Origin: a virus
Strand: one strand, 5' to 3'
Length of the DNA stretch: 20,827 nucleotides
Virus record (IMG/VR): IMGVR_UViG_3300006916_000507
Span: 1 to 20,827 of that record
Part shown: one piece after another, positions 208 through 17,648 of the stretch
How positions within the stretch are numbered: the stretch's first letter is position 1
How the letters are laid out: each line of letters opens with the position of its first letter
The notes under the pieces: generated by a model
What the model saw: the letters and a program-made list of their open reading frames with translations, nothing else
Database searches by the model: none
What the model was told of the DNA's origin: nothing
Translations under genes and position numbers: made by a program

Positions 208-722
208 TGGCTTTTGCTAGAGGGAAATATGCCTATGGCATCTGTGACAAGACAGGATTCCGCTACAGGCTGAACGACCTTGTCAATGAGATGAATAATG
301 GCGTTAAGACTGGTCTTAGGGTTGGCAAGGATGTTGCTGACCCAGACCACCCTCAAAACTATTTGGGTCGCATGAGAATTAATGACCCGCAGTCTGTCAT
401 GAATGCAAGGCCAGACAGAACAGAACCAGTTTCTATTTCAATGCTTGGCAACAATCCATTCAGCACAGGCGCTCAAGGCTCCGGTGTTGTTACTATAACC
501 GAAACAAACCATGGTCGTGATACAGGCGATACGGTTCGGTTCCGTGGAGTAGATAACTTTGACGGCATTACTAAAGCTGTAATGGAGCTTTCGACAGGCT
601 ACAGCATTACAAAAGTAAGTGCCGATACATATACAGTCACCGTCACAGATACGGCGTCTGTAGGCAATTTAGATGGTGGCGGTGGTCTTGCTAGTGCTGG
701 ACCAGTAACACCCGTGGCGTAG
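207..722 (+). CDS. neck/head-completion-like structural protein with FCCH-like C-terminal module
   Basis: A 171-residue protein. Residues 1-75 match a family I recognise from marine phages: a start of the type AYGICDKTGFRYRLNDL followed by a DPDHPQ motif and a segment rich in Asn, Pro and Arg. Better-known relatives carry paired CxxC zinc motifs in this part; here only C13 remains, so a zinc ribbon looks lost. Residues 91-160 form a beta module (VTIT, NHG, TGDTVRF, GYSI, DTYTVTV) resembling the E1 FCCH-like domain often annotated in phage structural proteins. The same kind of module recurs in the hub-like protein at 13805-15700. Its place between the basic protein and the adaptor suggests a head-tail junction role. 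The exact function is not established. Confidence 0.75.
   Translation: MAFARGKYAYGICDKTGFRYRLNDLVNEMNNGVKTGLRVGKDVADPDHPQNYLGRMRINDPQSVMNARPDRTEPVSISMLGNNPFSTGAQGSGVVTITETNHGRDTGDTVRFRGVDNFDGITKAVMELSTGYSITKVSADTYTVTVTDTASVGNLDGGGGLASAGPVTPVA
477..686 (+). repeat. FCCH-like beta module, copy A (codons 91-160 of the neck-like gene)
   Basis: The encoded segment has the order VVTITETNHG, TGDTVRFRG, GYSITKVSADTYTV and a closing Gly-rich stretch. It aligns by eye with codons about 108-183 counted from the GTG at 13796 in the hub-like gene. Similarity is at protein level only, with no long DNA identity, so the copies are old or independently acquired. Confidence 0.55.
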
Positions 723-3064: not shown

Positions 3065-3394
3065 ATGGCAAACGCATTTAAGACATTTACAGATACTGCG
3101 GTAGGGACAAGCCCAGCGACTATATATACTTGCCCCGCCTCAACAGAGACAACTATTATCGGACTAAATGTTTCCAACATATTGACAGTGTCTATCACCG
3201 TAGATGTTCAATTGGAGAACGCTGATGGTGACAATGTATATATTGTGAAAAGCGCAATTGTGCCAGTTGGCTCTTCTTTGGTGGCCTGTGGAGGTGACCA
3301 GAAGATTGTAATGAACGCATCCGATGTGTTGAAGGTGACTGCAAGCGCGGCGTCAGCGGCTGATGTAACTATGTCTATTCTGGAGATTACATAA
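3065..3394 (+). CDS. small conserved phage structural protein
   Basis: A 109-residue beta-rich protein. It has the pattern FTDTAVGTSPATIYTCPAST, TIIGLNVSNI, TVDVQLENADG, IVPVGSSLVACGGDQKIVM, DVLKVTASAASAADVTMSILEIT. Proteins with this order (threonine-rich start, I-G-L, V-D-V, PVGSSL, GGDQK, a closing S-x-L-E-I-T) are frequent in the tail gene region of marine phages. I recognise the type but know no tested function; a small jelly-roll or Ig-like virion protein is likely. Three bases separate it from the preceding gene, and its TAA overlaps the next ATG (TAATG). No signal peptide or membrane segment is seen. Confidence 0.65.
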   Translation: MANAFKTFTDTAVGTSPATIYTCPASTETTIIGLNVSNILTVSITVDVQLENADGDNVYIVKSAIVPVGSSLVACGGDQKIVMNASDVLKVTASAASAADVTMSILEIT

Positions 3395-4551
3395 TGGCGT
3401 TAGGCACTATTAACACCAACCAGATTGCAAGTGAAGCGGTCAACACCAACCAGATTGCAAATGAAGCGGTCACTGTACCGAAAGTGACTGACCAAGTTTT
3501 GTCTAGCAGAAACCTCATTATAAACGGTGCGATGCAGGTGGCACAGAGGAGTACGTCAGCTACAGGGCTTGGTGCGTCAAGCGGCTATTTTACAGTAGAC
3601 AGAATAAATTTTGGTTCAAGCGGAACTAGTGCGGGTAGATTTACTATGACACAAACTGCTGATGGACCTAGTGGTTTTGCAAACTGTTTAAAATTAGAAT
3701 GCACGACAGCAGATGCATCTGTTGCCGCTACTGAGTGGGAACACCTTCAGTATAGTGTAGAGGCACAAGACCTTCAAAGGCTAGGGTTTGGGTCTTCTGA
3801 CGCTGAAAGTTTTGTTCTTTCGTTCTATGTAAAGGGAAACGCGGCCGCCACATATACTATGGGTGCGTACCAAGTTGACGCAAACAGGTGGATGGCACAA
3901 ACATTTTCTGTAACTAGTAGCTGGAACAGGGTTTCTCTTTTATGGCCTAAAGATGTATCAGGTTATATAGCTGACGATAATGGCAATGGAATGGCCTTTT
4001 ACCTAACCTTACAAGTTGGAACAAATTTTACAAGCGGCTCTGTACCAGCTACATGGGAAACTTTAAATACTACAGATATAGCTGATTCAGGACAAACACA
4101 GTTTTTCGATAGCACATCAAGAACCCTTTCTATTACAGGTTTACAGATGGAAATAGGCGAGGTAGCCACGCCGTTTGAACACGAGCCATTCTCAGTAACT
4201 CAACAGAAATGCTTCCGCTATTACTATAATTCAAGATTTGGCAGTAATGACGGAGGCGCATATTCTTCGGGTCGTGATGCTCAGTATGGTCATGTCAGAG
4301 CATGTTTTGCACAGTTTCCTGTAAAAATGAGAGCGACACCAACAGTGTCAATTCAGTCTAGCAGTGCAAACTCAATGGATAGGTTTGGTCGGGGACAAGA
4401 AGAATGTTTCCCGAAAGCTGATAATATTCACCCTGACCATTTTCAAAACATCGTCAAATATACTTCGTCAGCGCAGACCACTACAGCCAACTGGACAGAC
4501 AGTGGTAACTATATAAATCGGGCTGGATATAAAGCGGATGCGGAGTTGTAA
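3394..4551 (+). CDS. tail fibre / receptor-binding protein with CBM-like middle (fibre copy A)
   Basis: A 385-residue protein. Residues 6-26 hold two ten-residue repeats (NTNQIASEAV, NTNQIANEAV), a known fibre pattern that probably forms a trimeric stalk. The RNLIINGAMQVAQRS motif at 39-53 opens a beta-sandwich region with FVLSFYVKGN and a closing ITGLQMEIGEVATPFEHE at 247-264. That is the usual layout of phage fibres with a carbohydrate-binding-like fold. The C-terminal part (CFRYYYNSRFG to the final DAEL) is probably the variable receptor-facing end. The fibre at 9858-10970 has the same motif order and also ends DAEL. Both are followed directly by a small protein of one family, so this pair is half of a duplicated cassette. 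Confidence 0.78.
   Translation: MALGTINTNQIASEAVNTNQIANEAVTVPKVTDQVLSSRNLIINGAMQVAQRSTSATGLGASSGYFTVDRINFGSSGTSAGRFTMTQTADGPSGFANCLKLECTTADASVAATEWEHLQYSVEAQDLQRLGFGSSDAESFVLSFYVKGNAAATYTMGAYQVDANRWMAQTFSVTSSWNRVSLLWPKDVSGYIADDNGNGMAFYLTLQVGTNFTSGSVPATWETLNTTDIADSGQTQFFDSTSRTLSITGLQMEIGEVATPFEHEPFSVTQQKCFRYYYNSRFGSNDGGAYSSGRDAQYGHVRACFAQFPVKMRATPTVSIQSSSANSMDRFGRGQEECFPKADNIHPDHFQNIVKYTSSAQTTTANWTDSGNYINRAGYKADAEL
3412..3471 (+). repeat. 30-base direct tandem repeat, two units
   Basis: Units 3412-3441 and 3442-3471 differ at one base (agt versus aat at the seventh codon). They encode the two ten-residue stalk repeats near the start of the fibre. The near identity points to a recent duplication that could change stalk length by slippage. 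Confidence 0.9.
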
Positions 4552-4737
4552 ATGAACGAAAATATTTATACAGACGTTGTTAGTCACATTCCTACGGGCG
4601 AAAATGTAGCTAACAATGTGTCCTGCAAAATTAACGGTGAGCCAACTTGTGTGCCAATGGATACAGATAACAGACATTGGGCAGAAATCATGCGTCAGGT
4701 AGAATCTGGCGCACTAACCATTGCGGATGCTGATTAA
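4552..4737 (+). CDS. small fibre-associated protein (copy A)
   Basis: A 61-residue protein starting directly after the fibre stop, with a GGAG ribosome site inside the last fibre codons. The C-terminal half, DNRHWAEIMRQVESGALTIADAD, matches the end of the protein encoded at 10967-11140 (NRHYSEIMRQVAAGELTIEDAD). At DNA level, 21 bases are identical (4682-4702 versus 11085-11105). The N-terminal half is unrelated or strongly diverged. Short ORFs after fibre genes are often fibre assembly proteins, so a chaperone-like or fibre-tip role is a reasonable inference, not shown. Its stop overlaps the next ATG (TAATG). Confidence 0.65.
   Translation: MNENIYTDVVSHIPTGENVANNVSCKINGEPTCVPMDTDNRHWAEIMRQVESGALTIADAD
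4682..4702 (+). repeat. 21-base direct repeat, copy 1 (in small fibre-associated gene A)
   Basis: It is identical to 11085-11105 in the second small fibre-associated gene, within the codons for EIMRQV. It is the longest exact match I noticed between the two cassettes and a possible recombination point. Similarity at DNA level falls off quickly on both sides. Confidence 0.8.
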
Positions 4738-5954
4738 TGTCATATATAGGAAATAAGCCATCGCAGACACTAGCAAGCCCGACTAGCCAGTATTTTAATG
4801 GTACTGGCTCACAGACGGTGTTTACGCTGAACCGCCTTGTTAATGTATCCGAAGACCTTGAGGTGTTTGTTAATAACATTCAACAGGAGCCGGGTGTTGG
4901 TAAGTCTTACACAGCTACAGGCTCAACACTGACATTTGATGCCGCGCCCTCCGCTGGGACAAGCAATGTGTATGTGGTTTATCGTGGGCTGGCAGAGATT
5001 ACAACACGACTAGAGCATGACCCTAATGCCGCGCTTGCCGCAACGACTGGGACGTTTACGGGCGATTTAACTGTAGACACCAACACACTGTATGTAGACA
5101 GCGCAAACAATCGGATTGGCATTAATACTATAACGCCTAGTGAAACCCTGCACGTTGAAGAAGCCACAACAGGTAATGCTGTGCGTGTGTCTAGAGGTGG
5201 CAATTATATTATTATGGGTGGTTCTGGCTCTGGAACACAATATGTAAAAGGTTACGAAGGCACTATTGCTTTTGGCAATGCCTTTGCGGGAAATACTACA
5301 TTTTTAACTGACGACACAGAACGTATGCGTATTACGTCATACGGAGACGTAGGTATAGGTCGCCCTGACCCGCAAAACATCGTGGGTAATAGTGGTGGCG
5401 GTCTCGTTGTAAGAAGTGGTGCAAGTCGCGCGGCTACTACTTCGTTGTTTGCGGTTCAAGACAGCAGTGGAAATAACTCGTTTCTGCAACTGCACAATGG
5501 TGAAACCACTTTTAGCGTAGGTGCGATTGGTTCTAAGACTGAAGCAATGCAAATCACTTCGGCTGGAGATGTTCTTGGTACTGATTTTGTTATGACATTT
5601 AACCCTTCATTCCCACCATCAGGAACAGGGACGTATTATCAAAACGGCGCTTTGACTAGCACTGACGCCTCATTAATCAATACCCTTGCGCCGTGTAATT
5701 TTAAAATTAAAGAGTTAAAGGTTTATGTTAACAGTGCGCTTACAAGCGGCTCTGCAACAGTTGCAATACTAAAAGATGGTTCCACTACTGGAAACCTTAG
5801 TATTGGAACAGGAACCAATGTTCATAGTTTAACTTCTTTTCTTGCAAATAATAGCTTTATCGCAAGCAGTAATAACAGGATTGGTGCAAGAATTATACTT
5901 AGTGGAACGTCACCCGCTTGGTATCACATATCAATACGTTGCGAGAGGACATAA
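4737..5954 (+). CDS. tail fibre protein with shaft repeats
   Basis: A 405-residue protein. The start MSYIGNKPSQTLASP, then QYFNGTGSQTVFTL and EVFVNNIQQEPG with YTATGSTLTFDAAP (about residues 18-75), is a common N-terminal anchor of phage fibres. A shaft follows with motifs of the VGIG type: NNRIGINTITPSETLHV, ERMRITSYGDVGIGRPDP, and EAMQITSAGDV. The last about 110 residues (from YYQNGALTST, through KELKVYVNSALTSG, to the end) are beta-rich and form a separate tip that I do not recognise. It begins on the stop of the preceding small gene and lacks a strong ribosome site, so coupled translation is likely. The shaft motif is shared with the fibre at 6521, and the anchor with 7478. Confidence 0.78.
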   Translation: MSYIGNKPSQTLASPTSQYFNGTGSQTVFTLNRLVNVSEDLEVFVNNIQQEPGVGKSYTATGSTLTFDAAPSAGTSNVYVVYRGLAEITTRLEHDPNAALAATTGTFTGDLTVDTNTLYVDSANNRIGINTITPSETLHVEEATTGNAVRVSRGGNYIIMGGSGSGTQYVKGYEGTIAFGNAFAGNTTFLTDDTERMRITSYGDVGIGRPDPQNIVGNSGGGLVVRSGASRAATTSLFAVQDSSGNNSFLQLHNGETTFSVGAIGSKTEAMQITSAGDVLGTDFVMTFNPSFPPSGTGTYYQNGALTSTDASLINTLAPCNFKIKELKVYVNSALTSGSATVAILKDGSTTGNLSIGTGTNVHSLTSFLANNSFIASSNNRIGARIILSGTSPAWYHISIRCERT

Positions 5955-5955
5955 T

Positions 5956-6159
5956 ATGTCTTTAGAAATAGACAGTTTAGAATTTGAACAGTATTCAGAA
6001 AAACTTGCTGAGATACATAAGTTAGAAATTGAAGGTCAAGATTTGCGGGTAATGAGAAACGCTATTCTCGGTAATGCTGATGCCATAGCAACACTTCAAT
6101 CTATCGAAGACCAAATTTCTGTTTTAAGAAATGATATGGCAATTTTAGAGGCTGAATAG
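5956..6159 (+). CDS. small coiled-coil protein in fibre block
   Basis: A 67-residue protein. The ATG at 5956 has GAGAGG a few bases upstream; the frame is open further upstream but only inside the preceding fibre. The sequence is acidic and helical with heptad-like hydrophobic spacing (LEFEQYSEKLAEIHKLEIEG, then IEDQISVLRNDMAILEAE), so a coiled coil over most of its length is likely. No Cys, Trp or membrane segment is seen. It lies between two fibre genes and ends directly before the tiny ORF at 6160. Small helical proteins here may be fibre assembly chaperones, but I do not recognise the family. Confidence 0.6.
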   Translation: MSLEIDSLEFEQYSEKLAEIHKLEIEGQDLRVMRNAILGNADAIATLQSIEDQISVLRNDMAILEAE

Positions 6160-6237
6160 ATGCCGATTAGTAAGATTGAAAAATGGAATGAGCGTCTATT
6201 GTCTTGGGTGGAAATAGCCAATGCCGAACAGGAGTAA
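6160..6237 (+). CDS. possible 25-residue mini-ORF or relic of a fibre gene start
   Basis: An ATG directly after the preceding TAG opens 25 codons: MPISKIEKWNERLLSWVEIA, then NAEQE, stop TAA. The first 11 bases of the ORF are identical to the start of the fibre gene at 6521 (which begins MPISKLHS), and two bases upstream also match, so it may be a displaced copy of that start. No strong ribosome site is visible. It could instead be a true short helical peptide coupled to its neighbours. Confidence 0.35.
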   Translation: MPISKIEKWNERLLSWVEIANAEQE

Positions 6238-6242
6238 ATAAA

Positions 6243-6515
6243 ATGCCAAATATTACAATCGAAGTAACAGACACTGAACTCAAGTGTATGGAGTATGCGG
6301 CACTTAGCCCCCAAGACTGGGCTGATAACGCAGTAACAAACCGCGCGCGCATCGCTGGCGATGAAATCGTAACGGCACTGGTAGCGCATTGCAACGCTAA
6401 CGAGATTGCTATTGCAACTGGCAAGGATGCCCAGATTGCACAGGCTTTTGAGTTGGGTGTGGTGAAGACTGCGGCAGAAGTTCAGGCCGAAGCTGAAGCT
6501 AACCTAACGGAGTAA
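6243..6515 (+). CDS. small conserved phage protein of unknown function
   Basis: A 90-residue protein. I chose the ATG at 6243 because GGAG sits eight bases upstream; a TTG at 6204 in the same frame would overlap the mini-ORF and has no ribosome site. The body contains TIEVTDTELKCMEYAALSPQ, DWADNAVTNRARIAGDEIV, VAHCNANEIAIATGKDAQI and a helical end with VVKTAAEVQAEAEANL. Proteins of this length with the segments SPQDWADNAVTNRARIA and HCNAN occur near fibre genes in other phages as far as I recall, without a defined role. It has no membrane segment and is mostly helical. An assembly role for the neighbouring fibres is possible but not shown. Confidence 0.6.
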   Translation: MPNITIEVTDTELKCMEYAALSPQDWADNAVTNRARIAGDEIVTALVAHCNANEIAIATGKDAQIAQAFELGVVKTAAEVQAEAEANLTE

Positions 6516-6520
6516 CCGAG

Positions 6521-7474
6521 ATGCCGATTAGCAAACTCCATTCAGCGAGCATGCCGGACTCGATAGCTATCGACACTGATGCTCTTGTCGTGGATGGCAC
6601 GAATAATCGGGTTGGTGTTGGCGTCACCGCCCCAGAAGCCAAGTTAGATTTAATTGGCAATTCAGACACTACGGCGGCACTTAAAATTGGTCCTAACGCC
6701 AACTTTGGACACCATTTCTACGACAGTTCTACAAACGGTGACTTAGTTATTAAGCGTGAGGAGAGTGGCGCACAGAATGAAACAATGCGGTTAACTCGTA
6801 GCGGCGGCAGGGTGGGCATTGGACAAACCAACCCAGACAGCGAAAGTTTGTTAGACTTAGGTTCTGGCGAAAACTCTGGTTACACTCGTAAACTGCTTGT
6901 TACGAACACAGGAAACTCTCGTGCGGGTTTAGGTGCGCTGAGTAATATCTTTCGTCTGTTTTACGCTGATGACCAAGCGGTTCAGTTTGGCACAGTGAGC
7001 CGTGACGGTAACTTTACCTTCAATGAGAAAATGCGCCTTGACTCATCAGGCCGTGTCACGAAGCCGTATCAACCCGCGTTTGGCGGCTATGCTTCACCTA
7101 CAGGTAGTGGTAACAGAACATTTGTATCTGGAACTTATTATCGTAAGACCAACTACAATACCGCGACTCATGAAACTGCATTCAATGTAGGCAACAACTT
7201 TAACACAACAACAGGAATATTCACTGCGCCAGTGGGTGGACTTTATGTATTTCACATGAGATTTTCACAAGGCATAGCAGATGGCAGAAAAATATACCAG
7301 TTCCAATTTCCAAGCGGCAATTTTATTGAAATAGCAGAAGACTTCAAACAGCACGGCGATGAACACGCCGCTATTCTAGTTAAGATGAACGTAAATGATA
7401 CAGTGTCTTGCGGCCTTCATAGCGGAATACAAGATAACGTCACCGTATTTTTTAGTGGCTACTTATTGGGGTAA
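6521..7474 (+). CDS. tail fibre with VGIG shaft repeats and C1q-like tip
   Basis: A 317-residue protein. After MPISKLHSASMPD comes a shaft with NNRVGVGVTAPEAKLDLIG, ETMRLTRSGGRVGIGQTNP and EKMRLDSSGRV, the typical beta-prism-like fibre repeat. About residues 187-317 form a clear C1q/TNF-like jelly roll: AFNVGNNFNTTTGIFTAPVG, GLYVFHMRF, MNVNDTVSCGL, FFSGYLLG. C1q-like domains are used by phages as trimeric receptor-binding heads. The start has a GGAG about nine bases upstream. The shaft is related to that at 4737, while the tip is related to the tips of 8214, 8743 and perhaps 9262. Confidence 0.82.
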   Translation: MPISKLHSASMPDSIAIDTDALVVDGTNNRVGVGVTAPEAKLDLIGNSDTTAALKIGPNANFGHHFYDSSTNGDLVIKREESGAQNETMRLTRSGGRVGIGQTNPDSESLLDLGSGENSGYTRKLLVTNTGNSRAGLGALSNIFRLFYADDQAVQFGTVSRDGNFTFNEKMRLDSSGRVTKPYQPAFGGYASPTGSGNRTFVSGTYYRKTNYNTATHETAFNVGNNFNTTTGIFTAPVGGLYVFHMRFSQGIADGRKIYQFQFPSGNFIEIAEDFKQHGDEHAAILVKMNVNDTVSCGLHSGIQDNVTVFFSGYLLG

Positions 7475-7477
7475 AAA

Positions 7478-8206
7478 ATGGCATATATAGGAATAGACCC
7501 AAATGTAGGCGACATAACCTTCCAGACATTTACGGGAAATGGGAGCGCCACTGCGTTTACCCTTGCTCAGTCTATTGTGAGTGGCGAGGCGTTACTTGTG
7601 ACTATTGGTAACGTGGTTCAAGAGCCGGGTGTATCTGCCGCTTACACAGCGCAAGGCAACACACTTACATTCTCTGCCGCGCCTGCTAACGGAGATGTGA
7701 TTACTGTAAGGTTCTTTGGGCGCGCTGTGGACCAACCTACAAGCTATGCCATGCAGTTGTTCAAGTATGTGGCTACCGCAAGTCAGACAGCATTTACTGG
7801 CGCGGACAATGCGGGCGCTATTTTAGCCTTTAGTGGGAATGATGTGGATGTATATCTAAATGGTGTGCATCTCGATACGTCTGACTTCACACCATCTAAT
7901 GGCGACACCATTACACTGGCATCAGGGGCGGCGCTAAACGATGAATTGGTCATCCGTGCCTATCGTGCGTTCACTGTAACTGATACAGTGAGTAAGTCTA
8001 GTGGAGGCACATTCGCGGCTGAGATTACCGCGCCGCAGTTTCAGACAACCAACACAACGGTAGACACCGCAGTATTTCGTACTAACGGACAAACTGTGGA
8101 CGAAAACACCACCATTGGGTCAACAAAGAATGCTTTGGCTATTGGTCCGCTGACAATAGACCCGTCAACGACCATTACAGTCAACGGCAACTTAACTATA
8201 CTGTGA
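7478..8206 (+). CDS. tail fibre anchor-type protein with two repeated N-terminal beta domains
   Basis: A 242-residue protein. Two related blocks follow each other. The first (about 14-86) has FTGNGSATAFTL, NVVQEPGVSAAYTAQGNTLT, FSAAPANGDVITVRF. The second (about 90-170) has ATASQTAFTG, DVDVYLNGVHL, FTPSNGDTITL, LNDELVIRAYRAF. Both are the repeated fibre domain also seen once in the gene at 4737. The end (TVDENTTIGSTKNALAIGPL, then TIDPSTTITVNGNLTIL) is the standard closing strand group of many marine phage fibres. It therefore lacks a separate tip domain and may act as a connector or as a fibre with a minimal head. GGGG lies seven bases before the ATG. Confidence 0.75.
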   Translation: MAYIGIDPNVGDITFQTFTGNGSATAFTLAQSIVSGEALLVTIGNVVQEPGVSAAYTAQGNTLTFSAAPANGDVITVRFFGRAVDQPTSYAMQLFKYVATASQTAFTGADNAGAILAFSGNDVDVYLNGVHLDTSDFTPSNGDTITLASGAALNDELVIRAYRAFTVTDTVSKSSGGTFAAEITAPQFQTTNTTVDTAVFRTNGQTVDENTTIGSTKNALAIGPLTIDPSTTITVNGNLTIL

Positions 8207-8213
8207 GGCGCAG

Positions 8214-8729
8214 ATGGCTTCGATATTAAATGTAGACGCAATAAACAACGTGGCGGGAACATCCGCCTTAACGATTGATAGCAATGGAGTTGTGTCATCT
8301 ACTGCTGTTTTATCTGTAATGTATAACAGTAGTAGCGTAACTATCCCAGATAACTCTGATACTGTAATTCCGTTACAGACTTCTGTTACAGATACTCACA
8401 GTCTTTATGATGCAACTAACGATAGACTGCTAATTACATCAGCGTTTAACAATTCATATTTTATAATTTCTTGGTCAGTTATGGTTACTGCGGCTGACGG
8501 TGACAATATGCAATGTCATCTTTCAAAAAACGGCTCTGCAATTCAAACTGACCGTAAATTTTATAATGGCGGAGAAGGTGAATCAATAAGCATGGGTGGA
8601 ACTTGGATGGGTCAGGTATCAACTGGCGATTACTTTGGCTTAATAGCATTTTGTGACAAGGCGTCAGGCACATCTTCTTCTGTAGTGGGTCTGAACAATA
8701 CGTTCTTGTACGCCGCTAAACTGTTTTAA
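8214..8729 (+). CDS. short tail fibre with ALTIDSNG tag and C1q/TNF-like domain
   Basis: A 171-residue protein. Residues 1-27 form a short tag ending ALTIDSNGVV, shared with the next two genes. The remainder is a jelly-roll-like domain: SVTIPDNSDTVIPL, then LYDATNDRLLIT, YFIISWSVMVTAADG, MQCHLSKNGS, GQVSTGDYFGLIAF and a closing NNTFLYAAKLF. That order fits C1q/TNF-like receptor-binding domains. GAGG precedes the ATG. Short fibres of this build could attach through the tag to a common tail component, with the jelly roll binding the cell surface. The attachment is inferred from the shared tag only. Confidence 0.75.
   Translation: MASILNVDAINNVAGTSALTIDSNGVVSSTAVLSVMYNSSSVTIPDNSDTVIPLQTSVTDTHSLYDATNDRLLITSAFNNSYFIISWSVMVTAADGDNMQCHLSKNGSAIQTDRKFYNGGEGESISMGGTWMGQVSTGDYFGLIAFCDKASGTSSSVVGLNNTFLYAAKLF
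8271..8287 (+). repeat. 17-base direct repeat in fibre tag, copy 1
   Basis: ACGATTGATAGCAATGG here is identical to 8800-8816 in the next gene, at the same codon position (residues 20-25, TIDSNG). A 14-base part of the same tag region (8794-8807) also recurs at 9316-9329 in the third gene. These are short shared stretches suited to homologous exchange between adjacent fibre genes. Confidence 0.85.
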
Positions 8730-8742
8730 ATAGGATAAAAAC

Positions 8743-9255
8743 ATGAGTACGCTCTATGTAGACAACATATACAGCAAGACGGGAGCCTCGCAGGCGCTGA
8801 CGATTGATAGCAATGGTATTGTTACTACACCATCTGTACCAGCGTGGCGCGTTTCAATAAGCGCAAACCAATCAGTTTCAGCTTCTGGTTTTACTCAAGT
8901 ACAACTTGACCTAACAAGTACACAAAACTGCTTCTTAAATGGTGGTGTGACAATCTCAAGTTATGAAGTGGTTGCTCCAGTAACAGGGATTTACGCTGTA
9001 AATGCTTTTGTAAGACTTGACGGCATTGGAAGCGGTTATACGCAAATAGGTATACAGGTAAATGGTATAAGAACTGGTATCAGTGATACTTATTCTATCA
9101 ACGGTTCTCCACCATCAAATTACATCACTATAACGGCAAGCGATGTATACAGCGTAACCGCAAACGATACATTTAAACTGGAAGTTTATACAAGTGCAGA
9201 CACGTCATACATTATAAATAATAATACTGTCTTTTCGGGGCATTTAGTAGGATAA
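8743..9255 (+). CDS. short tail fibre with ALTIDSNG tag and C1q-like domain
   Basis: A 170-residue protein. It starts MSTLYVDNIYSKTGASQALT and continues IDSNGIV, a fibre tag I know from many ocean phages. Residues 35-170 read as a C1q-like jelly roll: AWRVSISANQSVSASGFTQV, YEVVAPVTGIYAVNAFVRL, IGIQVNGI, VTANDTFKLEVYTSADTSYI, and the end VFSGHLVG with the F-x-G-x-L signature. AGGA lies eight bases before the ATG. It is the middle of three tandem genes with the same tag, and shares a 17-base identity with the first at the tag. Confidence 0.8.
   Translation: MSTLYVDNIYSKTGASQALTIDSNGIVTTPSVPAWRVSISANQSVSASGFTQVQLDLTSTQNCFLNGGVTISSYEVVAPVTGIYAVNAFVRLDGIGSGYTQIGIQVNGIRTGISDTYSINGSPPSNYITITASDVYSVTANDTFKLEVYTSADTSYIINNNTVFSGHLVG
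8800..8816 (+). repeat. 17-base direct repeat in fibre tag, copy 2
   Basis: Identical to 8271-8287. Both encode part of the ALTIDSNG tag at the same distance from the start codon. Confidence 0.85.
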
Positions 9256-9261
9256 CGAGAC

Positions 9262-9849
9262 ATGACCAGCATTTTAAAAGTCAGTGAAATCCAAGACCCA
9301 ACGAACAGCAACACCGCGCTGACGATTGACAGTAGTGGCAATGTTTCGTTTAGCAACTCCGTGTCAAACGCAATACAGCCTGCCGTATTTGTTCGGTATT
9401 CTAACACTACTGGAAGGTCTAGCAATACATTTCACACTAGACAGTTTGACACCATTTCTTCAGGTAGCATACCGGGTGCAAGCGTTGATGCATCTGGCTA
9501 TGCGAACCTTCCGGCTGGCACTTATATCATTCAATATAATGCGACTTGTATCAATAATTCTGGCGGCCACGGTGAGGTTGTCTCTCGCCTGTACGACCAT
9601 GCGGCGGGTTCAGTTGTTGCAAACTCTTACTCTGTTCGCTCGACACAGGCGGCTGACGGAACAGATAGCACATTTCATGGCGGGTCTGTTGTGGTGTCCT
9701 TTTCTTCAACGGCGGCAATAACCGCCCAAACATTGGTTGAAAACTCTTCGTGGGACGATGTTAATACTTTTGATGGTAGCCCCGGAAATACACTTGGTGC
9801 GGCAAACAATCAGAAGAATGTTGAAATGACCGCTATTAAGATTGCATAG
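9262..9849 (+). CDS. short tail fibre with ALTIDS tag and probable jelly-roll domain
   Basis: A 195-residue protein. The tag MTSILKVSEIQDPTNSNTAL, TIDSSGNV is one residue longer than in the two preceding genes. The body contains FHTRQFDTISSGSIPG, YANLPAGTYIIQYNATCIN, EVVSRLYDHAAGS, FHGGSVVVSFSSTAAITAQT, VENSSWDDVNTFDGSP and ends NVEMTAIKIA. The P-A-G-T-Y-I-I-Q-Y strand followed by R-L-Y-D and a closing I-K-I-A is the pattern of a TNF/C1q-like sandwich, though it is more diverged than its neighbours. A weak GGA lies in the overlap region upstream. Function as a receptor-binding fibre is inferred from the tag, fold pattern and neighbours. Confidence 0.72.
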   Translation: MTSILKVSEIQDPTNSNTALTIDSSGNVSFSNSVSNAIQPAVFVRYSNTTGRSSNTFHTRQFDTISSGSIPGASVDASGYANLPAGTYIIQYNATCINNSGGHGEVVSRLYDHAAGSVVANSYSVRSTQAADGTDSTFHGGSVVVSFSSTAAITAQTLVENSSWDDVNTFDGSPGNTLGAANNQKNVEMTAIKIA

Positions 9850-9857
9850 GAGCAAAC

Positions 9858-10970
9858 ATGAGCAACGCCCGAAATCTAGCAAACCTACTTGGTACTGGAA
9901 CGCAGATAACCACTGCCGATATTGCTGATGGGGTGTTTCAGGCAAACAAAAACCTCATCATCAATGGTGCGATGCAGGTATTTCAGAGAGGAACTGCATC
10001 TACTGGCAATAACGCATATTCAGTAGACCGATGGCAACACAAAGATAACGCATCAACTGTTGCAATGACCATTACTCAAGATACAGATGTGCCTACTGGA
10101 CAAGGTTTTTATTACAGCCTCAAAGCGTCTACAACAGCAAATGTAACAGCGAACGGTTTTTTAGGGATAGCCCAACGCATGGAAGGGTATAACATTAACC
10201 CGCTTGCGTGGGGAACTTCGGGAGCAAAACAGGCAACCTTATCATTTTGGGTTAAATCTTCAACAGCAGGGACTTACGGACTATCATCAAGAAACAATGC
10301 CGCTGATAGGTCGTGCGTAATGGAATACACAATCAATGCGGCAGATACTTGGGAATATAAAACCGTTACTTTTCCTGCGGATACTAGCGGCACTTGGGAA
10401 ACAACGACAAATATTGGTAATCGCCTATGGTGGGGATTATCCGCAACAGGCGGCATTACATCAACAATCGGAAGTTGGCAAAATGCAAACCTTTACCAAT
10501 CATCTAACAATGTCGATTGGTCTGGCTCAACTGCAACAGCAACCTTCTACATCACAGGCGTACAGCTTGAAATAGGCGAACAGGCCACGCCGTTTGAACA
10601 CCGCAGTTTTGGCGATGAGTTGGCTAGGTGTCAGCGGTATTATGAACATTCGTACCCTTATGGAACAGCGGCGGGTGCGGCTAATGGCGGGATAGGCGCG
10701 TATCATATTCATGCGGGGGCTTTACGAGCAAATTTTTATGGTTTCGTAACCACAAGATACACTGTTCAAAAACGAGCATCGGCTACCGTTACGGTGTACA
10801 GCTATGGCGGGACATCAGGTCAAATATCTAATGGGGACAGTGGTGCAAACATAGGTGCGGCAAGCGTCATTCAAAACGGCGCAACATCTTTTTTAATACG
10901 AAACAACTCTGGTGGAACACTAGCTGACCAACCGATTATTTTCCATTATAGTGGAGACGCGGAATTATGA
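9858..10970 (+). CDS. tail fibre / receptor-binding protein with CBM-like middle (fibre copy B)
   Basis: A 370-residue protein with an AGGAG ribosome site. It begins MSNARNLANLLGTGTQITTA and DIADGVFQANKNLIINGAMQ VFQRG, a common phage fibre N-terminus. The middle is a carbohydrate-binding-like sandwich: ATLSFWVKSSTAGTYGLSS, TWEYKTVTFPADTSGTW, ATFYITGVQLEIGEQATPFE at about 227-246, followed by ELARCQRYYEHSY. The C-terminal part, ending IFHYSGDAEL, is the likely variable tip. It shares motif order and final residues with the fibre at 3394-4551, while the N-terminal stalks differ. Its stop overlaps (ATGA) the start of a 57-residue small gene of the same family as the one after the first fibre. 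Confidence 0.8.
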   Translation: MSNARNLANLLGTGTQITTADIADGVFQANKNLIINGAMQVFQRGTASTGNNAYSVDRWQHKDNASTVAMTITQDTDVPTGQGFYYSLKASTTANVTANGFLGIAQRMEGYNINPLAWGTSGAKQATLSFWVKSSTAGTYGLSSRNNAADRSCVMEYTINAADTWEYKTVTFPADTSGTWETTTNIGNRLWWGLSATGGITSTIGSWQNANLYQSSNNVDWSGSTATATFYITGVQLEIGEQATPFEHRSFGDELARCQRYYEHSYPYGTAAGAANGGIGAYHIHAGALRANFYGFVTTRYTVQKRASATVTVYSYGGTSGQISNGDSGANIGAASVIQNGATSFLIRNNSGGTLADQPIIFHYSGDAEL

Positions 10971-11140
10971 TTATTTCATCAGCACAATACATAGCAGATA
11001 ACAGCGGTGATATTGTTGGTATATCTGCGGTTATAGATAGCGACAATGTTAATGTGCCTCTTGACCCAGCCAACCGCCACTACTCAGAAATCATGCGTCA
11101 GGTAGCCGCTGGCGAACTGACGATAGAGGATGCTGACTGA
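10967..11140 (+). CDS. small fibre-associated protein (copy B), short ORF easily missed
   Basis: The ATG at 10967 overlaps the fibre stop (ATGA) and opens 57 codons ending with TGA at 11138-11140, which itself overlaps the next ATG (TGATG). The protein starts MIISSAQYIADNSGDIVGIS and ends NRHYSEIMRQVAAGELTIED AD. Its last 22 residues match the end of the 61-residue protein at 4552-4737, and 21 bases are identical (11085-11105). This conserved family and double overlap make it a real gene despite its length. It leaves no gap between two fibre genes. A fibre assembly or tip role is inferred from its fixed place after CBM-like fibres. Confidence 0.8.
   Translation: MIISSAQYIADNSGDIVGISAVIDSDNVNVPLDPANRHYSEIMRQVAAGELTIEDAD
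11085..11105 (+). repeat. 21-base direct repeat, copy 2 (in small fibre-associated gene B)
   Basis: Identical to 4682-4702, encoding EIMRQV within the conserved C-terminal half of the small fibre-associated proteins. Confidence 0.8.
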
Positions 11141-11859
11141 TGCTAGGCGCGGTTGCCATATCAGAAAGAGCTATATCAGACCAAGGCGTTCTTCTTGAGG
11201 GCGCTCAGTCTATATTTTCTCAATTTGAGCTAGGAAACAATTCAAATATAATTGCCAAAGGCTCCGCTGAAATGACCGCCATAGGCGTCAAGGCTTCTAT
11301 TGGTGTTGGAATACTTACTGGCATAATGGAGGCATCCGCAAACTTTACGCAGAGTGCGTCTTCGTTAAGGTTTGCCACTGGCGTTTCGGGTATGGTTTGT
11401 ACTAGCGTACAAACTTCATCTGGCACATATGTTGCGAGCGCGCTGTCAGAACAAGACGCTTCATTTATACAGGACTCTGCCGCAACAAGGATTGCTATAA
11501 CATCTTCTGAGCAGTCCGCTAACTTTACACAGTCATCTTCGGCAAATGTTGATTTTTCAGGAGCCGCCGCTGTTGACTTTGAGTTCTCTCAGGAGGCTTC
11601 AGGTAGCCGCGTGAATACTGGGGTTCTGGCTCTTGTATCAGAGTTTGAGCTTGATGAAACAGCAGGCATATTAATCTACGACAATGAATTACATGTAGAT
11701 TTCTTCTTTGTTCAAACAGCAAATGGCGCGCTTCTGTGGGAAAAAATAGACGCTGGAGCATCTCCAGAAAACTGGAGTCCAGTTGCCCCATCTGGCGGCA
11801 CATGGACAGAGGTAGATGCGAATGGTAATATAGAGATATGGAAGAAAATGGTGGTTTAA
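11140..11859 (+). CDS. fibre-like protein made of 20-residue repeats
   Basis: A 239-residue protein overlapping the previous stop (TGATG). From about residue 9 to 208 it is built of 20-residue units. Phe recurs at 29, 69, 109, 129, 149, 169 and 189, a Q or similar residue two positions later, and Gly at 21, 41, 61, 81, 141 and 161. The units are rich in Ser, Ala and Thr, for example FTQSASSLRFATGVSG and FTQSSSANVDFSGAAAVD. The last 40 residues (ALLWEKIDAGASPENWSPV, then TWTEVDANGNIEIWKK) resemble W-rich endings of phage fibres. The regular period suggests a beta-solenoid or spiral shaft. I do not recognise a named family; a fibre role is inferred from repeats and neighbours. Confidence 0.7.
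   Translation: MLGAVAISERAISDQGVLLEGAQSIFSQFELGNNSNIIAKGSAEMTAIGVKASIGVGILTGIMEASANFTQSASSLRFATGVSGMVCTSVQTSSGTYVASALSEQDASFIQDSAATRIAITSSEQSANFTQSSSANVDFSGAAAVDFEFSQEASGSRVNTGVLALVSEFELDETAGILIYDNELHVDFFFVQTANGALLWEKIDAGASPENWSPVAPSGGTWTEVDANGNIEIWKKMVV
11224..11763 (+). repeat. nine-unit 60-base (20-residue) protein repeat
   Basis: Units of exactly 20 codons start at codons 29, 49, 69, 89, 109, 129, 149, 169 and 189, with a probable degenerate tenth unit at codons 9-28. Column 1 is Phe in seven of nine, column 3 is Gln in five consecutive units (69 to 149), and column 13 is often Gly. DNA identity between units is low, so the repeat is old and held by protein structure. Confidence 0.75.
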
Positions 11860-13260
11860 ATGGCTTCGACTTATACCCGTAATATTGGAATTGAAAAGCC
11901 CGGTACTGGCGATAAGTCAGGAACTTGGGGCGTTACAACTAATGTTAACTTTGACATTATTGATGATGGCATCAATGGTCAGGCCACTATTGCTATATCT
12001 GGAAGCCAAGACCTAACCACAACTGATGGAACATCTGGCTCAGACGGTTCTCATAAAGTAATCATTCTCACTGGAACTCCGGGGGCCACATTTGAGCTTC
12101 GAGTAACCCCAACGGACCAGCAAAAATATTTTGTAATTAAAAACGAAACAGATTCTGCTTGTCGCGTCATTTATAAGGGCGTCACATATTCAACATCAAA
12201 CGGCGTAGAGATTGTATCTGGTGCAACTCAAGCGGTTACTGGTGACGGTGGCGGCGCATCAGGCGTGTTCAAATCCTTAACACCTAACACAGACCTTATT
12301 AACGATGTGACACCCCAGCTTGGGGGCAATTTGGACGTTAATGGCAACGATATTGTCTCAGTGTCCAATGGTGATATTGACATCATTCCAAATGGCACTG
12401 GCGCGGTTAACATCACAGGCACCACAAACATCACTGGCGACCTTGATGTAGACAACATCAATATTGATGGCAATACAATTATCAGCACCAATTCAAATGG
12501 CAATATCAATTTTACGCCAAATGGCACTGGCGCTGTCACTATTACAGCGACAACCAATGTCACTGGCGACTTGGATATTGATAACCTGAACATTGATGGC
12601 AATGCCATTACCAGCACAAATACAAATGGCGACATAACCATAACGCCAAACGGTTCTGGTAGTGTTGTGATTGATGGTATCAGTCACCCACAAGCTGACG
12701 GAACAAGCGGTCAAGTTTTGCAAACAAACGGGTCTGGTCAGCTATCGTTTGCCTCTCCATCAAGCCCATCTCCGGCTAATATTGTTTTTTACAGTAGTGG
12801 CAGTGGCAACATTTCTTTGCCATCAGGTACATCAGCTGTTTATATAGAGATTGCTGGCGGCGGCGGTGGTGGCGGAACACGAGGCCCCGGCAACGGCAAT
12901 AACTCCTATGGCGGCGGTACTGGCGGTGACAGCACCATAAGCGGTCCGGTCAGCATTAACATGAGAGCCAAGGGTGGCGGTGGCGGCAATGGAGACGGCT
13001 CTTATAACGGCCCGTTCTCAAGTGGGGATTCTGGCGGCACAGTATTTGTTGGCAATGGCGGCGCGGGGGGCGCTCAAGACGGTAACTTTGACATTACTGG
13101 CAACGAGGGCCGTAGAGGAAATATGGTAAAAAAATTCGTTAATAATGCGGGCCTAAGTGGAGGAACGCTCAGTTACTCTGTGGGCGGCGGAGGAGCGTCA
13201 TCGGGCGTTGACAGCGCTAAAGCGGGCGCAAACGGATGGGTAGAAGTTTGGTATTGGTAA
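11860..13260 (+). CDS. tail fibre with 43-residue repeats and glycine-rich tip
   Basis: A 466-residue protein starting directly after the preceding stop. Residues 1-130 (MASTYTRNIGIEKPGTGDKS, GTWGVTTNVNFDIIDDGING, then YFVIKNETDSACRVIYKG) match a widespread N-terminal fibre domain of marine phages. TPQLGGNLDVNG at 151-162 opens a shaft with a 43-residue repeat of the form NGTGAV, TTN-TGDLD, DGN-I, STN-NG. Residues about 331-450 form a glycine-rich tip with runs of up to seven glycines, similar in composition to the adhesin tips of some T-even-like phages and to phage Gly-rich domains, ending GANGWVEVWYW. The tip is probably the receptor-binding part. It is the last fibre before the hub-like gene and the oxygenase. 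Confidence 0.8.
   Translation: MASTYTRNIGIEKPGTGDKSGTWGVTTNVNFDIIDDGINGQATIAISGSQDLTTTDGTSGSDGSHKVIILTGTPGATFELRVTPTDQQKYFVIKNETDSACRVIYKGVTYSTSNGVEIVSGATQAVTGDGGGASGVFKSLTPNTDLINDVTPQLGGNLDVNGNDIVSVSNGDIDIIPNGTGAVNITGTTNITGDLDVDNINIDGNTIISTNSNGNINFTPNGTGAVTITATTNVTGDLDIDNLNIDGNAITSTNTNGDITITPNGSGSVVIDGISHPQADGTSGQVLQTNGSGQLSFASPSSPSPANIVFYSSGSGNISLPSGTSAVYIEIAGGGGGGGTRGPGNGNNSYGGGTGGDSTISGPVSINMRAKGGGGGNGDGSYNGPFSSGDSGGTVFVGNGGAGGAQDGNFDITGNEGRRGNMVKKFVNNAGLSGGTLSYSVGGGGASSGVDSAKAGANGWVEVWYW
12340..12678 (+). repeat. 129-base (43-residue) tandem repeat in fibre shaft
   Basis: The phrase for NGTGAV or NGSGSV recurs at 12391, 12520 and 12649, exactly 129 bases apart, with two full units and partial ones on both sides. 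DNA similarity between units is clear (AATGGCACTGG at the first two). This suggests unit gain or loss by recombination. Confidence 0.85.
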
Positions 13261-13275
13261 ATCGTTCATTGGGAG

Positions 13276-13830
13276 ATGAAATTGATAAAAATAGAGGACA
13301 ATGTATTAACCGAAGATGAACTTAATAAAGTTGATGGCATAAAGCATCCGAGCTTTCCATGGTATTCAGATGACCACACTGACTTTCCGGGTGACGGAAA
13401 CCCACAGTTCACTCATTTGTTTTATCAAAACATACAATTTCAACAAAGCAACTACCTTGAGTTGTTGTATCCACTTTTCGGCAAAATAAAGCCATTTGCG
13501 TTATTGAAAGTAAAAGCCAATCTAAATCTAGCCACATCCAAGGAAAGTATATTCCACATCGACTACGGAGAAGTAGAGAACAGGGTTTACCCAGAGATGA
13601 AAAGTTTGGTTAAGACTTCTATTTTTTACTTAGATGATGACCTTGGCGGCACAGAATTTGAGTCTGGTGAATTTGTAGAAACAAAAAGAAACAGGTTAGT
13701 CACCTTTCCGTCTGGCGTGAAACACAGGTCTGTAAAGCACACGCAAGAGGGTGCCAGAAGGTTTGTTGTAAACTTTAATTACATACCATTTATGAGTGAG
13801 CAATATGCCCCTTCAGAAGTTACAATTTAG
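13276..13830 (+). CDS. 2-oxoglutarate/Fe(II)-dependent oxygenase
   Basis: A 184-residue protein with the jelly-roll oxygenase signature. The iron site is H94-x-D96 in SIFHIDYGE and H150 in FPSGVKHRS, and the 2-oxoglutarate-binding Arg is R161 or R162 in EGARRFVVNFNYI. The GGTEF strand at 124-128 lies at the expected place between them. Enzymes of this superfamily hydroxylate proteins, nucleic acids or small molecules; the substrate cannot be told here. It lies between the Gly-rich fibre and the hub gene and overlaps the latter by 26 bases, so a virion protein substrate is possible. GGGAG touches the ATG at 13276 directly, while a TTG at 13282 would have ideal spacing, so the true start may be that TTG. 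Confidence 0.85.
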   Translation: MKLIKIEDNVLTEDELNKVDGIKHPSFPWYSDDHTDFPGDGNPQFTHLFYQNIQFQQSNYLELLYPLFGKIKPFALLKVKANLNLATSKESIFHIDYGEVENRVYPEMKSLVKTSIFYLDDDLGGTEFESGEFVETKRNRLVTFPSGVKHRSVKHTQEGARRFVVNFNYIPFMSEQYAPSEVTI

Positions 13831-15700
13831 ACCCGGTATAAATAGAGATGTAACATCATACTCTAACGAAGGCGGCTGGGTGGACGGAAATAAAATTCGC
13901 TTTAGACTGGGATACCCAGAAAAGATTGGCGGCTGGGCTAAGTACACAGCTAACTCATTTCTGGGCGTTTGTCGCGCCCTTCACAACTGGATTGGTCTTG
14001 ACGGCTCCAACTTCCTAGGGGTTGGAACTCATCTAAAATATTATATTGAAGAGGGCGGTGGCTTCAATGACATCACACCCCTCAGAAGCACCACAGCCGC
14101 TGGTGACGTGACCTTTGCCGCAACTAATGGCTCTAGCGTCATAACTGTCACAAATATCAATCACGGCGCCATTCAAGACGATTTTGTTACGTTCTCTGGA
14201 GCCGCATCCTTGGGCGGCAACATAACAGCAAACATATTAAACGACATAAACGGCTATCAAGTCATAGCTGTCCCGTCATCAAGCACCTATACAATTGATG
14301 TGGGTACTTCCGCCAGTGGCGCCGATACGGGCAATGGCGGAGCTTCAGTGGTAGGCGCCTATCAAATAAACGTTGGCCTAAACTCTCAGGTGGGGGGCAC
14401 AGGTTGGGGTGCTGGCACATGGGGACGAGGAGGATGGGGTTCAGGCTCATCTCTAACCACGACTACACAGATTCGCATTTGGTCGCATGATAACTTTGGT
14501 GAAGACCTTATCATCAACCCAAGAGACTCTAATGTGTACTACTGGGACAAGGGCGGCGGGCTTGGCGCGCGCGCAGTTGAGCTTTCTACATTAGCTGGCG
14601 CTAAAAGCGTTCCTCAAGTGGCAAAGCAAGTTCTTGTATCTGACTCAGACAGACACGTTATTGCTTTTGGGTGCGATGGGCTGGGCGCTAGTCCAAGCGC
14701 CACACAGGGCAACGGTACTCAAGACCCCTTGCTTATTAGATTCTCATCTCAAGAAAATGCTACTGATTGGTATCCTACAACAACAAATACCGCCGGAGAC
14801 TTGTTGATTGGTTCAGGCTCTACCTTTGTTCAGGCTATAGAAACAAAGCGAGAGGTTCTTGTTTGGTCAGACACATCTCTGCACTCCATGAAATTTATTG
14901 GGCCTCCGTTCACTTTCGGCATTCAGCAAATTACTGGTGGCATCACAATTATGGGTCCAAACGCCGCCGCCGCAACTGAAGACTTTGTGTTTTGGATGGG
15001 TATAGATAATTTCTATGTATATGCTGGTCAAACTCAACAGCTTGACTCCCCCGTAAAAGACTTTGTGTTTAACGACTTTAACTTCTCTCAAACAGATAAG
15101 GTTTGGGCCGCAGTTAATTCAGAGTTTTCCGAAGTTATATGGCTATACCCATCACAGACTAATTCTCTTGGCAATGGCGGAACCGGAGAAAACGACAGAT
15201 ACGTTATATACAATTACAAAGACCAGATTTGGTACTACGGTACAATAAATAGGTCTGCTTGGATTGACCGTGGTACAAGAACATTCCCTCTCGCGGCGGA
15301 AAGTGGCTATCTTTACAATCAGGAGTTTGAGTATGATGATGACGGCTCTCCAATGGATTCGTTTATTGAGTCCGCGCCAATGGACATTGAAGATGGAGAC
15401 AGATTCTCTCTGGTTACAAAGGTTATACCAGATATGACATTTCAAGGCTCAACGAGCCTAGCCAGTCCGCAAGCTACGTTTACTCTAAAGGCTAGAACGG
15501 CGCCCGGAAATGCATATGGCTCCACTGATACAGGAACAACAGTCCGGCTATCATCTTCACCCATAGAGACATTTACAGACGAACTTAACCTTAGAGTTAG
15601 GGGCAGAACATTTGCTGTAAGAATTGATTCATCTGCGCTGGGTACAAAATGGAAGCTAGGTTCTCCTCGTGTTAATATCCGGCCAGACGGGAAAAGATAA
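13805..15700 (+). CDS. large tail hub/nozzle or stabilisation-like protein
   Basis: A 631-residue protein from the ATG at 13805; an in-frame GTG at 13796 is possible but has no better ribosome site. The start LQFRPGINRDVTSYSNEGGW, DGNKIRFRLGYPEKIGGWAK, FLGVCRALHNW is typical of a large marine phage family. I relate this family to P22 gp10-like stabilisation or T7-like nozzle proteins, which are beta-propellers below the portal adaptor. An FCCH-like insert (about 14117-14344) is followed by WGAGTWGRGGWGSGSS. Propeller-like blades come next (TQIRIWSHDNFGEDLIINPR, VLVWSDTSLHSMKFIG, KVWAAVNSEFSEVIWLYPSQ, RYVIYNYKDQIWYYG). The adaptor at 731 and this protein would form the tail tube. The nozzle call is inference; family membership is fairly sure. 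Confidence 0.75.
   Translation: MPLQKLQFRPGINRDVTSYSNEGGWVDGNKIRFRLGYPEKIGGWAKYTANSFLGVCRALHNWIGLDGSNFLGVGTHLKYYIEEGGGFNDITPLRSTTAAGDVTFAATNGSSVITVTNINHGAIQDDFVTFSGAASLGGNITANILNDINGYQVIAVPSSSTYTIDVGTSASGADTGNGGASVVGAYQINVGLNSQVGGTGWGAGTWGRGGWGSGSSLTTTTQIRIWSHDNFGEDLIINPRDSNVYYWDKGGGLGARAVELSTLAGAKSVPQVAKQVLVSDSDRHVIAFGCDGLGASPSATQGNGTQDPLLIRFSSQENATDWYPTTTNTAGDLLIGSGSTFVQAIETKREVLVWSDTSLHSMKFIGPPFTFGIQQITGGITIMGPNAAAATEDFVFWMGIDNFYVYAGQTQQLDSPVKDFVFNDFNFSQTDKVWAAVNSEFSEVIWLYPSQTNSLGNGGTGENDRYVIYNYKDQIWYYGTINRSAWIDRGTRTFPLAAESGYLYNQEFEYDDDGSPMDSFIESAPMDIEDGDRFSLVTKVIPDMTFQGSTSLASPQATFTLKARTAPGNAYGSTDTGTTVRLSSSPIETFTDELNLRVRGRTFAVRIDSSALGTKWKLGSPRVNIRPDGKR
14117..14344 (+). repeat. FCCH-like beta module, copy B (in hub-like gene)
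   Basis: The encoded segment has VITVTNINHG, DDFVTFSGAASLGGNITA, GYQVIAVPSSSTYTIDVG and a Gly-rich close. It matches the order in codons 91-160 of the neck-like gene at 207-722. It appears as an insertion into the N-terminal region of the hub-like protein. Confidence 0.55.
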
Positions 15701-16613: not shown

Positions 16614-17648
16614 ATGCCTACTCCATCTCTACCAGACCGCATTTACGAAGAGACTGCAAGAGCCTTTTATAGTAACGGCAAAAGCGTAAAAAAAGCCGCA
16701 CAAGCAGAGGGTGTTAATTACGCCACCTTCTCTACTAGACTTAGAAGAGCAAGGGATATGGGCCTTGTTAATGAAAGTGCTAGGGTAGAGGCAGAGAAAA
16801 GCGCGCCCATCAAAGAGGCAACTGTTGTTCTAAAGCCCGTATATAGGATTCAGCAAAGAAAATCTAAGCCAGAAGAAACACAAAGGGTTCTTGCTATAGG
16901 AGATTGCCATGATGGGCCGTCCCTACCAGATAAACAGAGATTCTATGCGATGGGGCGCTACGCTAAAGAGAATCAGGTGGACAGAATTGTTCAGATAGGT
17001 GACTTTGCAAGTGTTGACTCTCTAAATAGATTTGACCGTAACGACACTATTAAGGGCCAGAAGAAGCCATCTTTTGGTCAAGACATGAAGAGCTTCCAAC
17101 AGGCCATAAGGGCCTTTCACAGGGGTTTAGATGGCTACGATGTGCCGAAGCATGTAACATTAGGCAATCATGAAGACAGAATCTGGTCGTACACTAACAA
17201 GAACCCAGAGATTATTGAGCTTCTCGACCAAATACTATTTGCAACTATGGATGATTATGGGTGGACTTACTCCCCCTACGGAGAGTTTTATTTTATTGGG
17301 GACGTAGGTTTTACTCACGCCCCCTTAAATATTATGGGGAAAGCATACGGTGGAATGCATGCTGAAAATCAAATCTCTAGAGATGCCCTTCATGATGTGG
17401 TATTTGGGCATACTCATAAAAGGCTGGATAAAAACTTTCCTAAAATGGGTAATCAGTCGATAACTATAATGAATTTAGGCACAAGCCTACCGCAAGACCA
17501 CGTTGAGGAGTATGCTAAACATACATTAACTGGATGGTCCTACGGGGTCTACGACATCCAGATAAAAGATGGTAGAATAGACGAAAGAACGTGGGTTCCT
17601 ATTAACAATCTTATTAATCGCTATGGTGAAGGTTATGCGGGAGATTAA
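16614..17648 (+). CDS. metallophosphoesterase with N-terminal helix-turn-helix
   Basis: A 344-residue protein with a GGGGGA ribosome site. Residues about 10-50 (ARAFYSNGKSVKKAAQAEGV, NYATFSTRLRRARDMGL) form a resolvase-like helix-turn-helix. Residues 91-310 carry the calcineurin-like metal site in order: GDCHDG (D97, H99), GDF (D130), GNHED (N185, H186), FTHAP (H235), GHTHK (H266, H268). All metal ligands are present. Such enzymes cleave phosphoester bonds in nucleic acids, nucleotides or proteins; the substrate is unknown here. Phage copies with an N-terminal HTH are fairly common. Its last bases overlap the amidase start. It lies in the lysis region, but a direct lysis role is not implied. 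Confidence 0.85.
   Translation: MPTPSLPDRIYEETARAFYSNGKSVKKAAQAEGVNYATFSTRLRRARDMGLVNESARVEAEKSAPIKEATVVLKPVYRIQQRKSKPEETQRVLAIGDCHDGPSLPDKQRFYAMGRYAKENQVDRIVQIGDFASVDSLNRFDRNDTIKGQKKPSFGQDMKSFQQAIRAFHRGLDGYDVPKHVTLGNHEDRIWSYTNKNPEIIELLDQILFATMDDYGWTYSPYGEFYFIGDVGFTHAPLNIMGKAYGGMHAENQISRDALHDVVFGHTHKRLDKNFPKMGNQSITIMNLGTSLPQDHVEEYAKHTLTGWSYGVYDIQIKDGRIDERTWVPINNLINRYGEGYAGD

Follow-up and report, generated by a model that had tools for sequence, protein, structure and literature searches.

Gene content of the locus

The window, by which we mean the whole stretch of DNA analysed, corresponds to a virus record 20,827 bases long. The gene for a repeat protein lies in it among the following tail genes:

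731, upstream: tail protein (phrog_10775/2941)
3394, upstream: tail fibre protein (phrog_4492)
4737 and 7478, upstream: tail fibre proteins (phrog_18673)
9858..10970, + strand: upstream tail fibre protein (phrog_4492 tail fiber, 4.7e-59)
10967..11140, + strand: 57-aa protein between the fibre gene and the repeat gene, with a paralogue at 4552-4737
11140..11859, + strand: repeat ORF, complete, 239 aa, with an N-terminal motif, nine 20-aa units and a Trp-rich C-terminus
11860..13260, + strand: downstream fibre-like gene, N-terminus matching phrog_31104 (8.9e-29), probable partner
13796..15700, + strand: tail 'stabilization' or virion structural protein (phrog_3287, 2.2e-67), with relatives annotated as stabilization protein

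A DNA ejection protein gene is also found downstream of the repeat gene. The N-terminus of the 11860..13260 product matches phage 'tail spike/tail fiber' proteins. In all 34 usable loci (those extending far enough) a homologue of this gene directly adjoins the repeat gene, starting within a few bases of its stop. The repeat protein is ordinary in its location, and it probably resides on the virion surface. We regard as very improbable the alternative of a secreted or host-interaction repeat protein that is no part of the virion and merely happens to lie in the tail cluster. Our literature search found no proteomic data for any homologue, which leaves room for such a protein. However, inspection of the N-terminus by eye gave no sign of a secretion signal, and the place between fibre genes is fixed in these 34 loci and recurs in Venkman and MW202481 (see below).

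Several neighbouring genes deserve mention. About ten appendage-like genes stand in a row at 3394-13260, several of which match PHROG tail fibres or have N-termini of the fibre type; this is a rich fibre arsenal for a marine, probably short-tailed phage. The paralogous proteins of about 60 residues at 4552-4737 and 10967-11140 both contain NRH[WY].EIMRQV..G.LTI.DAD, and each directly follows a phrog_4492 fibre gene. A relative precedes the repeat gene in many homologous loci, and these proteins are possibly a fibre assembly chaperone. The top PHROG assignment of 13276-13830, 'DNA endonuclease V' (phrog_274), looks wrong; Pfam weakly indicates a 2OG-Fe(II) oxygenase, and pelagiphages carry genes annotated 2OG oxygenase at the equivalent position. 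By eye only, the N-terminal helix-turn-helix-like stretch in the product of 16614-17648 is followed by a motif resembling that of metallophosphoesterases (GDCHDG...GDF...GNHEDR).

Nine units of 20 residues

The ORF occupies 11140-11859, as the initial annotation had it, and the Phe (29, 69, 109, 129, 149, 169 and 189) and Gly (21, 41, 61, 81, 141 and 161) residues from which a 20-residue repeat had been proposed are correctly placed. Seven of the 13 Phe fall into one class modulo 20, a clustering reached by none of 20,000 random placements; the corresponding P was ~0.003 for Gly, and for Gln it was ~0.0008. Across residues 21-198, BLOSUM62 autocorrelation peaked at lags 20, 40 and 60 only, with z = 6.4, 6.7 and 5.3, compared with a 95% shuffle maximum over all lags of 3.3. 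The 20-residue period lies far above chance, which supports a real structural repeat. Mapping the homologue-derived unit profile onto the protein gave the following layout:

11140..11199, + strand: N-terminal motif, residues 1-20, M[FL]G..A[IL]SE.AI[AS].QG[IV], highly conserved, presumed docking segment
11200..11259, + strand: unit 1, GAQSIFSQFELGNNSNIIAK, unit profile
11260..11319, + strand: unit 2, GSAEMTAIGVKASIGVGILT, specialised, K at position 11
11320..11379, + strand: unit 3, GIMEASANFTQSASSLRFAT, unit profile
11380..11439, + strand: unit 4, GVSGMVCTSVQTSSGTYVAS, S replaces F
11440..11499, + strand: unit 5, ALSEQDASFIQDSAATRIAI, unit profile
11500..11559, + strand: unit 6, TSSEQSANFTQSSSANVDFS, unit profile
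11560..11619, + strand: unit 7, GAAAVDFEFSQEASGSRVNT, unit profile
11620..11679, + strand: unit 8, GVLALVSEFELDETAGILIY, unit profile
11683..11742, + strand: unit 9, NELHVDFFFVQTANGALLWE, after the one-residue insertion D181; repeat Phe F190; holds the first Trp, W200
11737..11856, + strand: C-terminal Trp array, W200, W212, W222 and W234 at intervals of 12, 10 and 12; Trp invariant in the alignment

The units start at residues 21, 41, 61, 81, 101, 121, 141, 161 and 182 and span residues 21-201. The earlier count of nine or ten units of exactly 20 residues therefore holds for the period and settles at nine, whereas the accompanying claim of no insertions is slightly off: units 8 and 9 are separated by one extra residue (step 161 to 182). 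F190 was taken as the repeat Phe of the last unit because the homologue alignment matches this residue and not F189. Two features had not been remarked on before, a conserved Gln two residues after the Phe and the Trp-rich tail. The letters DANFT would fit a bacterial N-glycosylation sequon, a match by letters only, and we rejected this assignment.

A family with whole-unit variation under purifying selection

Scans of viral contigs yielded about 105 distinct homologous proteins. The commonest unit is G-x-[SA]-[ET]-[MQ]-D-[AF]-N-F-T-Q-T-[ST]-x-[GA]-x-[LR]-[IV]-A-S, with F in 91% and Q in 71%. The step from unit to unit was 20 residues in 751 of 835 cases and 21 in 51. Homologues retain the 20-residue period and vary by whole units, with 5 (n=3), 9 (n=83), 10 (n=16) or 13 (n=3) units as judged by span. 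The unit with Lys at position 11, unit 2 in the window, is usually second in homologues; it comes first in L003-like proteins, and L104 and L107 have it as the fifth or sixth. In units 7-9 of the repeat genes of L003, L004 and L009, near-identical proteins differ in clustered blocks within the late units, as if units had been swapped by gene conversion.

Consistent with the earlier remark that no named family was known to have this unit, Pfam and PHROG searches returned no family covering the repeat protein. Known phage tail fibre PHROGs gave no credible profile match, a search of annotated phage proteins with the window protein as query gave no match, and scans of genome contigs gave no confirmed relative. 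A PHROG tape-measure match to the window protein at 0.033 and PDB matches at E 0.14-10 were at chance level and were discarded.

Pairs of close homologues are under purifying selection, and the ORF is therefore a real gene. pN/pS was 0.18 in the units and 0.21 in the C-terminus, and lowest, at 0.09, in the N-terminus. Within the unit, selection was strongest on F9 (0.01) and Q11 (0.05), then on positions 7, 19 and 5, and weakest around the turns.

C-terminal tryptophans come in pairs

After the last unit, Trp residues in the homologue family are spaced 10-13 residues apart. The number of Trp intervals was odd (3, 5 or 11) in 104 of 105 proteins; therefore the array Trp come in pairs, giving an even count. 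The exception, L112, has the aromatics F, F, Y and W at about the same spacing, equal to three intervals. Proteins of the Venkman type (see below) have 1, 3 or 5 intervals, and six of them with (12,10) intervals are 3+1 arrays interrupted by an insert with a Trp of its own.

In L103, L106, L107 and L114 neighbouring 10-residue half-units are nearly identical, so slippage by a half-unit should be as easy as slippage by a double. Since no addition of single half-units is seen, 20 residues seem to behave as one indivisible coil of two strands, as far as the sequences suggest. Duplication in steps of 60 bases could account for part of this parity.

Relatives and look-alikes in annotated phages

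Because periodicity alone inflates profile scores, comparisons with other repeat proteins were controlled with reversed sequences. Venkman EXVC282S gp51 (MT375522) scored 39.3 bits against the A3 profile forward and 2.8 reversed, and MW202481, annotated 'serine-rich adhesin', scored 36.5 bits forward, while its reverse did not appear among the matches listed. Both share the N-terminal motif with the window protein (MYGLSAFSQSPYSALG in Venkman gp51), carry exact 20-residue units in the same register and end in a Trp array with steps of about 10 residues, and their genes likewise lie between fibre genes and the stabilization protein. The Venkman-type unit, G-x-A-S-I-x-G-T-A-T-[LV]-T-A-x-G-x-R-I-x-x, replaces the Phe at position 9 of the window family by Ala and the Gln at 11 by Val/Leu. 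Comparison of the two profiles by hhalign gave 95.8% and 7.5e-9. The Venkman type thus combines homology with an exact tandem 20-residue unit and an even C-terminal Trp count at steps of about 10 residues. About 80 contig loci encode such proteins, and in some of them a different N-terminus precedes a module of this kind. Electron microscopy showed a short tail on Methylophilales phage Venkman (PMC8163748). Its gp51 (L180:5938-6654, 238 aa) is annotated 'putative E3 ubiquitin-protein ligase HERC6', evidently a misannotated repeat protein.

These sequence comparisons support homology beyond periodicity only for Venkman gp51 and MW202481. MW202462, MEP401 and MEP402 agree with them in architecture or period, but scored as well or better when reversed, and no homology is claimed. 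In gp53 of Roseobacter phages CRP-902 and CRP-901 (L177:6964-7890 and L186:6564-7508), a phrog_28581 N-terminus, of the same family as window 207-722, is followed by VTGVAGTGAVGTV repeats of about 20 residues and a GWGxxxWGxGxWG end. These proteins resemble the window protein in a 20/40-residue periodicity leading into a Trp/Gly array; however, their N-terminal domain and gene position differ, and the likeness noted is one of periodicity and array. Tail fibres of the Lactobacillus LP65 type also have a 20-residue period (L175, phage LP65 orf97, z 13 at lag 20), but their sequence, such as YKTQTADLIASKVATKDFSA, is unrelated and was judged convergent.

Predicted fold of the repeat

AlphaFold2 (AF2) monomer prediction of the window protein from 64 sequences drew regular strands at a pLDDT of 35.6 and pTM of 0.21. 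A regular homologue, L090, reached a pLDDT of 54.1 and pTM of 0.45 from 40 sequences, with up to about 70 in the middle units and strands at unit positions 4-11 and 15-20. Both models contain two strands per unit, or one per ~10 residues, in low-confidence monomer predictions that bear on the solenoid or beta-spiral shaft suggested initially. No globular fold was predicted. Foldseek found no match at E <= 0.001 in PDB or BFVD; the BFVD entry A0A6J5LZG7 (231 aa), at probability 0.99 and TM 0.42 though without E <= 0.001, may be a relative.

Among the matches listed for the L090 model, nearly all were parallel beta-helices (best Z 12.7 over 188 residues at 3.1 A), including the L. reuteri SRRP (Z 12.7) and P22 tailspike (Z 10.9), alignments to be read with the model's low confidence. 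The coils of these two proteins are longer and irregular, in contrast to the regular 20-residue units here. AF2 is known to build confident but unrealistic beta-solenoids from random repeats, ten copies of a random 20-residue unit being one such case (PMC11795689). Given this bias, a solenoid model at pLDDT 54 is weak evidence. Strand A shows polar/apolar alternation in both the FTQ and the Venkman families. A parallel beta-solenoid fold would draw jointly on this alternation, the Trp parity and the weak models.

Curlin offers a further comparison. The CsgA repeat is a two-strand coil of about 23 residues with alternating inward hydrophobics ending in an inward Gln (PMC10192328). The Psi5-x-Psi7-x-F9-x-Q11 pattern of the window family resembles half of the curlin motif, N-x-Psi-x-Psi-x-Q in both strands; however, the leading Asn is missing, the short strand has no second Q motif, and the signature appears only as a Psi-x-Psi-x-Psi-x-Q half in one strand. 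Unlike CsgA, which may terminate in a half repeat, the window family shows none, and nothing here points to polymerisation. Curlin families in Pfam gave no match at E <= 0.1 among 64 members.

The monomer models also bear on a homotrimeric shaft built from a new 20- (2 x 10-) residue unit, either a beta-spiral like that of adenovirus fibre or an intertwined triple beta-helix like that of T4 gp5. Obligate trimers can be mispredicted as monomers, as in the case of a Vgr-type protein (PMC10584680), which would fit the pLDDT of 36, and both the tail-fibre gene context and a strand-turn every 10 residues are compatible with such a shaft. Nevertheless we consider it rather unlikely. The period of 20 differs from the 15 or 8 residues of known shafts: autocorrelation showed no peak at 15, expected of an adenovirus-type beta-spiral, and the Gp5_C profile of the T4 gp5-type triple beta-helix, with 8-residue repeats, matched 1 of 64 members at E 0.028 only. 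There is no sequence relation to PDB fibre shafts, and a trimer with one strand per turn does not require an even number of Trp.

Choline-binding repeats are also about 20 residues long. That length, the aromatic-rich tail and the weak matches of 2 among 64 members to Bflower_3 (4.2e-5 at best) would suit an antiparallel beta-hairpin repeat of the choline-binding or beta-flower-like kind, with one hairpin per 20 residues and aromatic sites on a glycan-binding surface. We judge this improbable. For the beta-flower profiles (PF21784-PF21786) L045 scored 19.7 bits against a curated cut-off of 34 and the window protein had no match; moreover, beta-flowers are closed rings with a fixed strand number, whereas the unit number here is open. 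The Pfam choline-binding repeat profile gave no match at E <= 1 for the window protein or at E <= 0.1 for 64 members.

A putative tail appendage with a Trp-rich tip

Our preferred reading, which we hold to be about equally likely right or wrong, is a virion tail-appendage protein consisting of a docking peptide, a short beta-solenoid-like rod and a Trp-rich tip. The conserved N-terminal ~20 residues would dock the protein to the tail. Each 20-residue unit would make a single two-stranded coil. Its long strand, at positions ~4-11, would point M/Q5, A/F7, F9 and Q11 to one face and D/S6, N8 and T10 to the other; its short strand, at ~15-20, would have I/V18 buried. Judging from the alternation, the weak models and the parity, the coils would stack into a short rod with a ladder of F9 and Q11 inside, like a two-sheet beta-solenoid. 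The C-terminal Trp-rich coils would continue the strand-turn rhythm of ~10 residues into a tip whose probable contact would be either the surface of the host or the fibre protein encoded by the adjoining downstream gene. Gain and loss of whole units, seen in the sequences, would set rod length. Nine such coils would measure only about 4-5 nm, so the earlier description as fibre-like suits the tail-fibre gene cluster but overstates the dimensions.

Under this reading the protein is a beta-repeat phage appendage protein, a known kind, unnamed and new in its unit. The family is common in aquatic viral contigs, where the ~105 distinct proteins and ~80 Venkman-type loci have no Pfam or PHROG entry, and it is misannotated in cultured phages. 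Whole units and an even number of Trp together amount to a clean structural prediction, and the natural 5-, 9-, 10- and 13-unit variants permit direct comparison of repeat number with rod length. It is possible, although we would lean against it, that these proteins form an undescribed appendage class across aquatic phages, in which a curli-like rod of two-strand coils with Phe/Gln ladders changes length by whole coils and joins varied N-terminal docking pieces to a host-binding tip with a Trp ladder. The repeat protein may be one of the parts with which abundant marine phages, most of whose adsorption proteins are unknown, contact their hosts.
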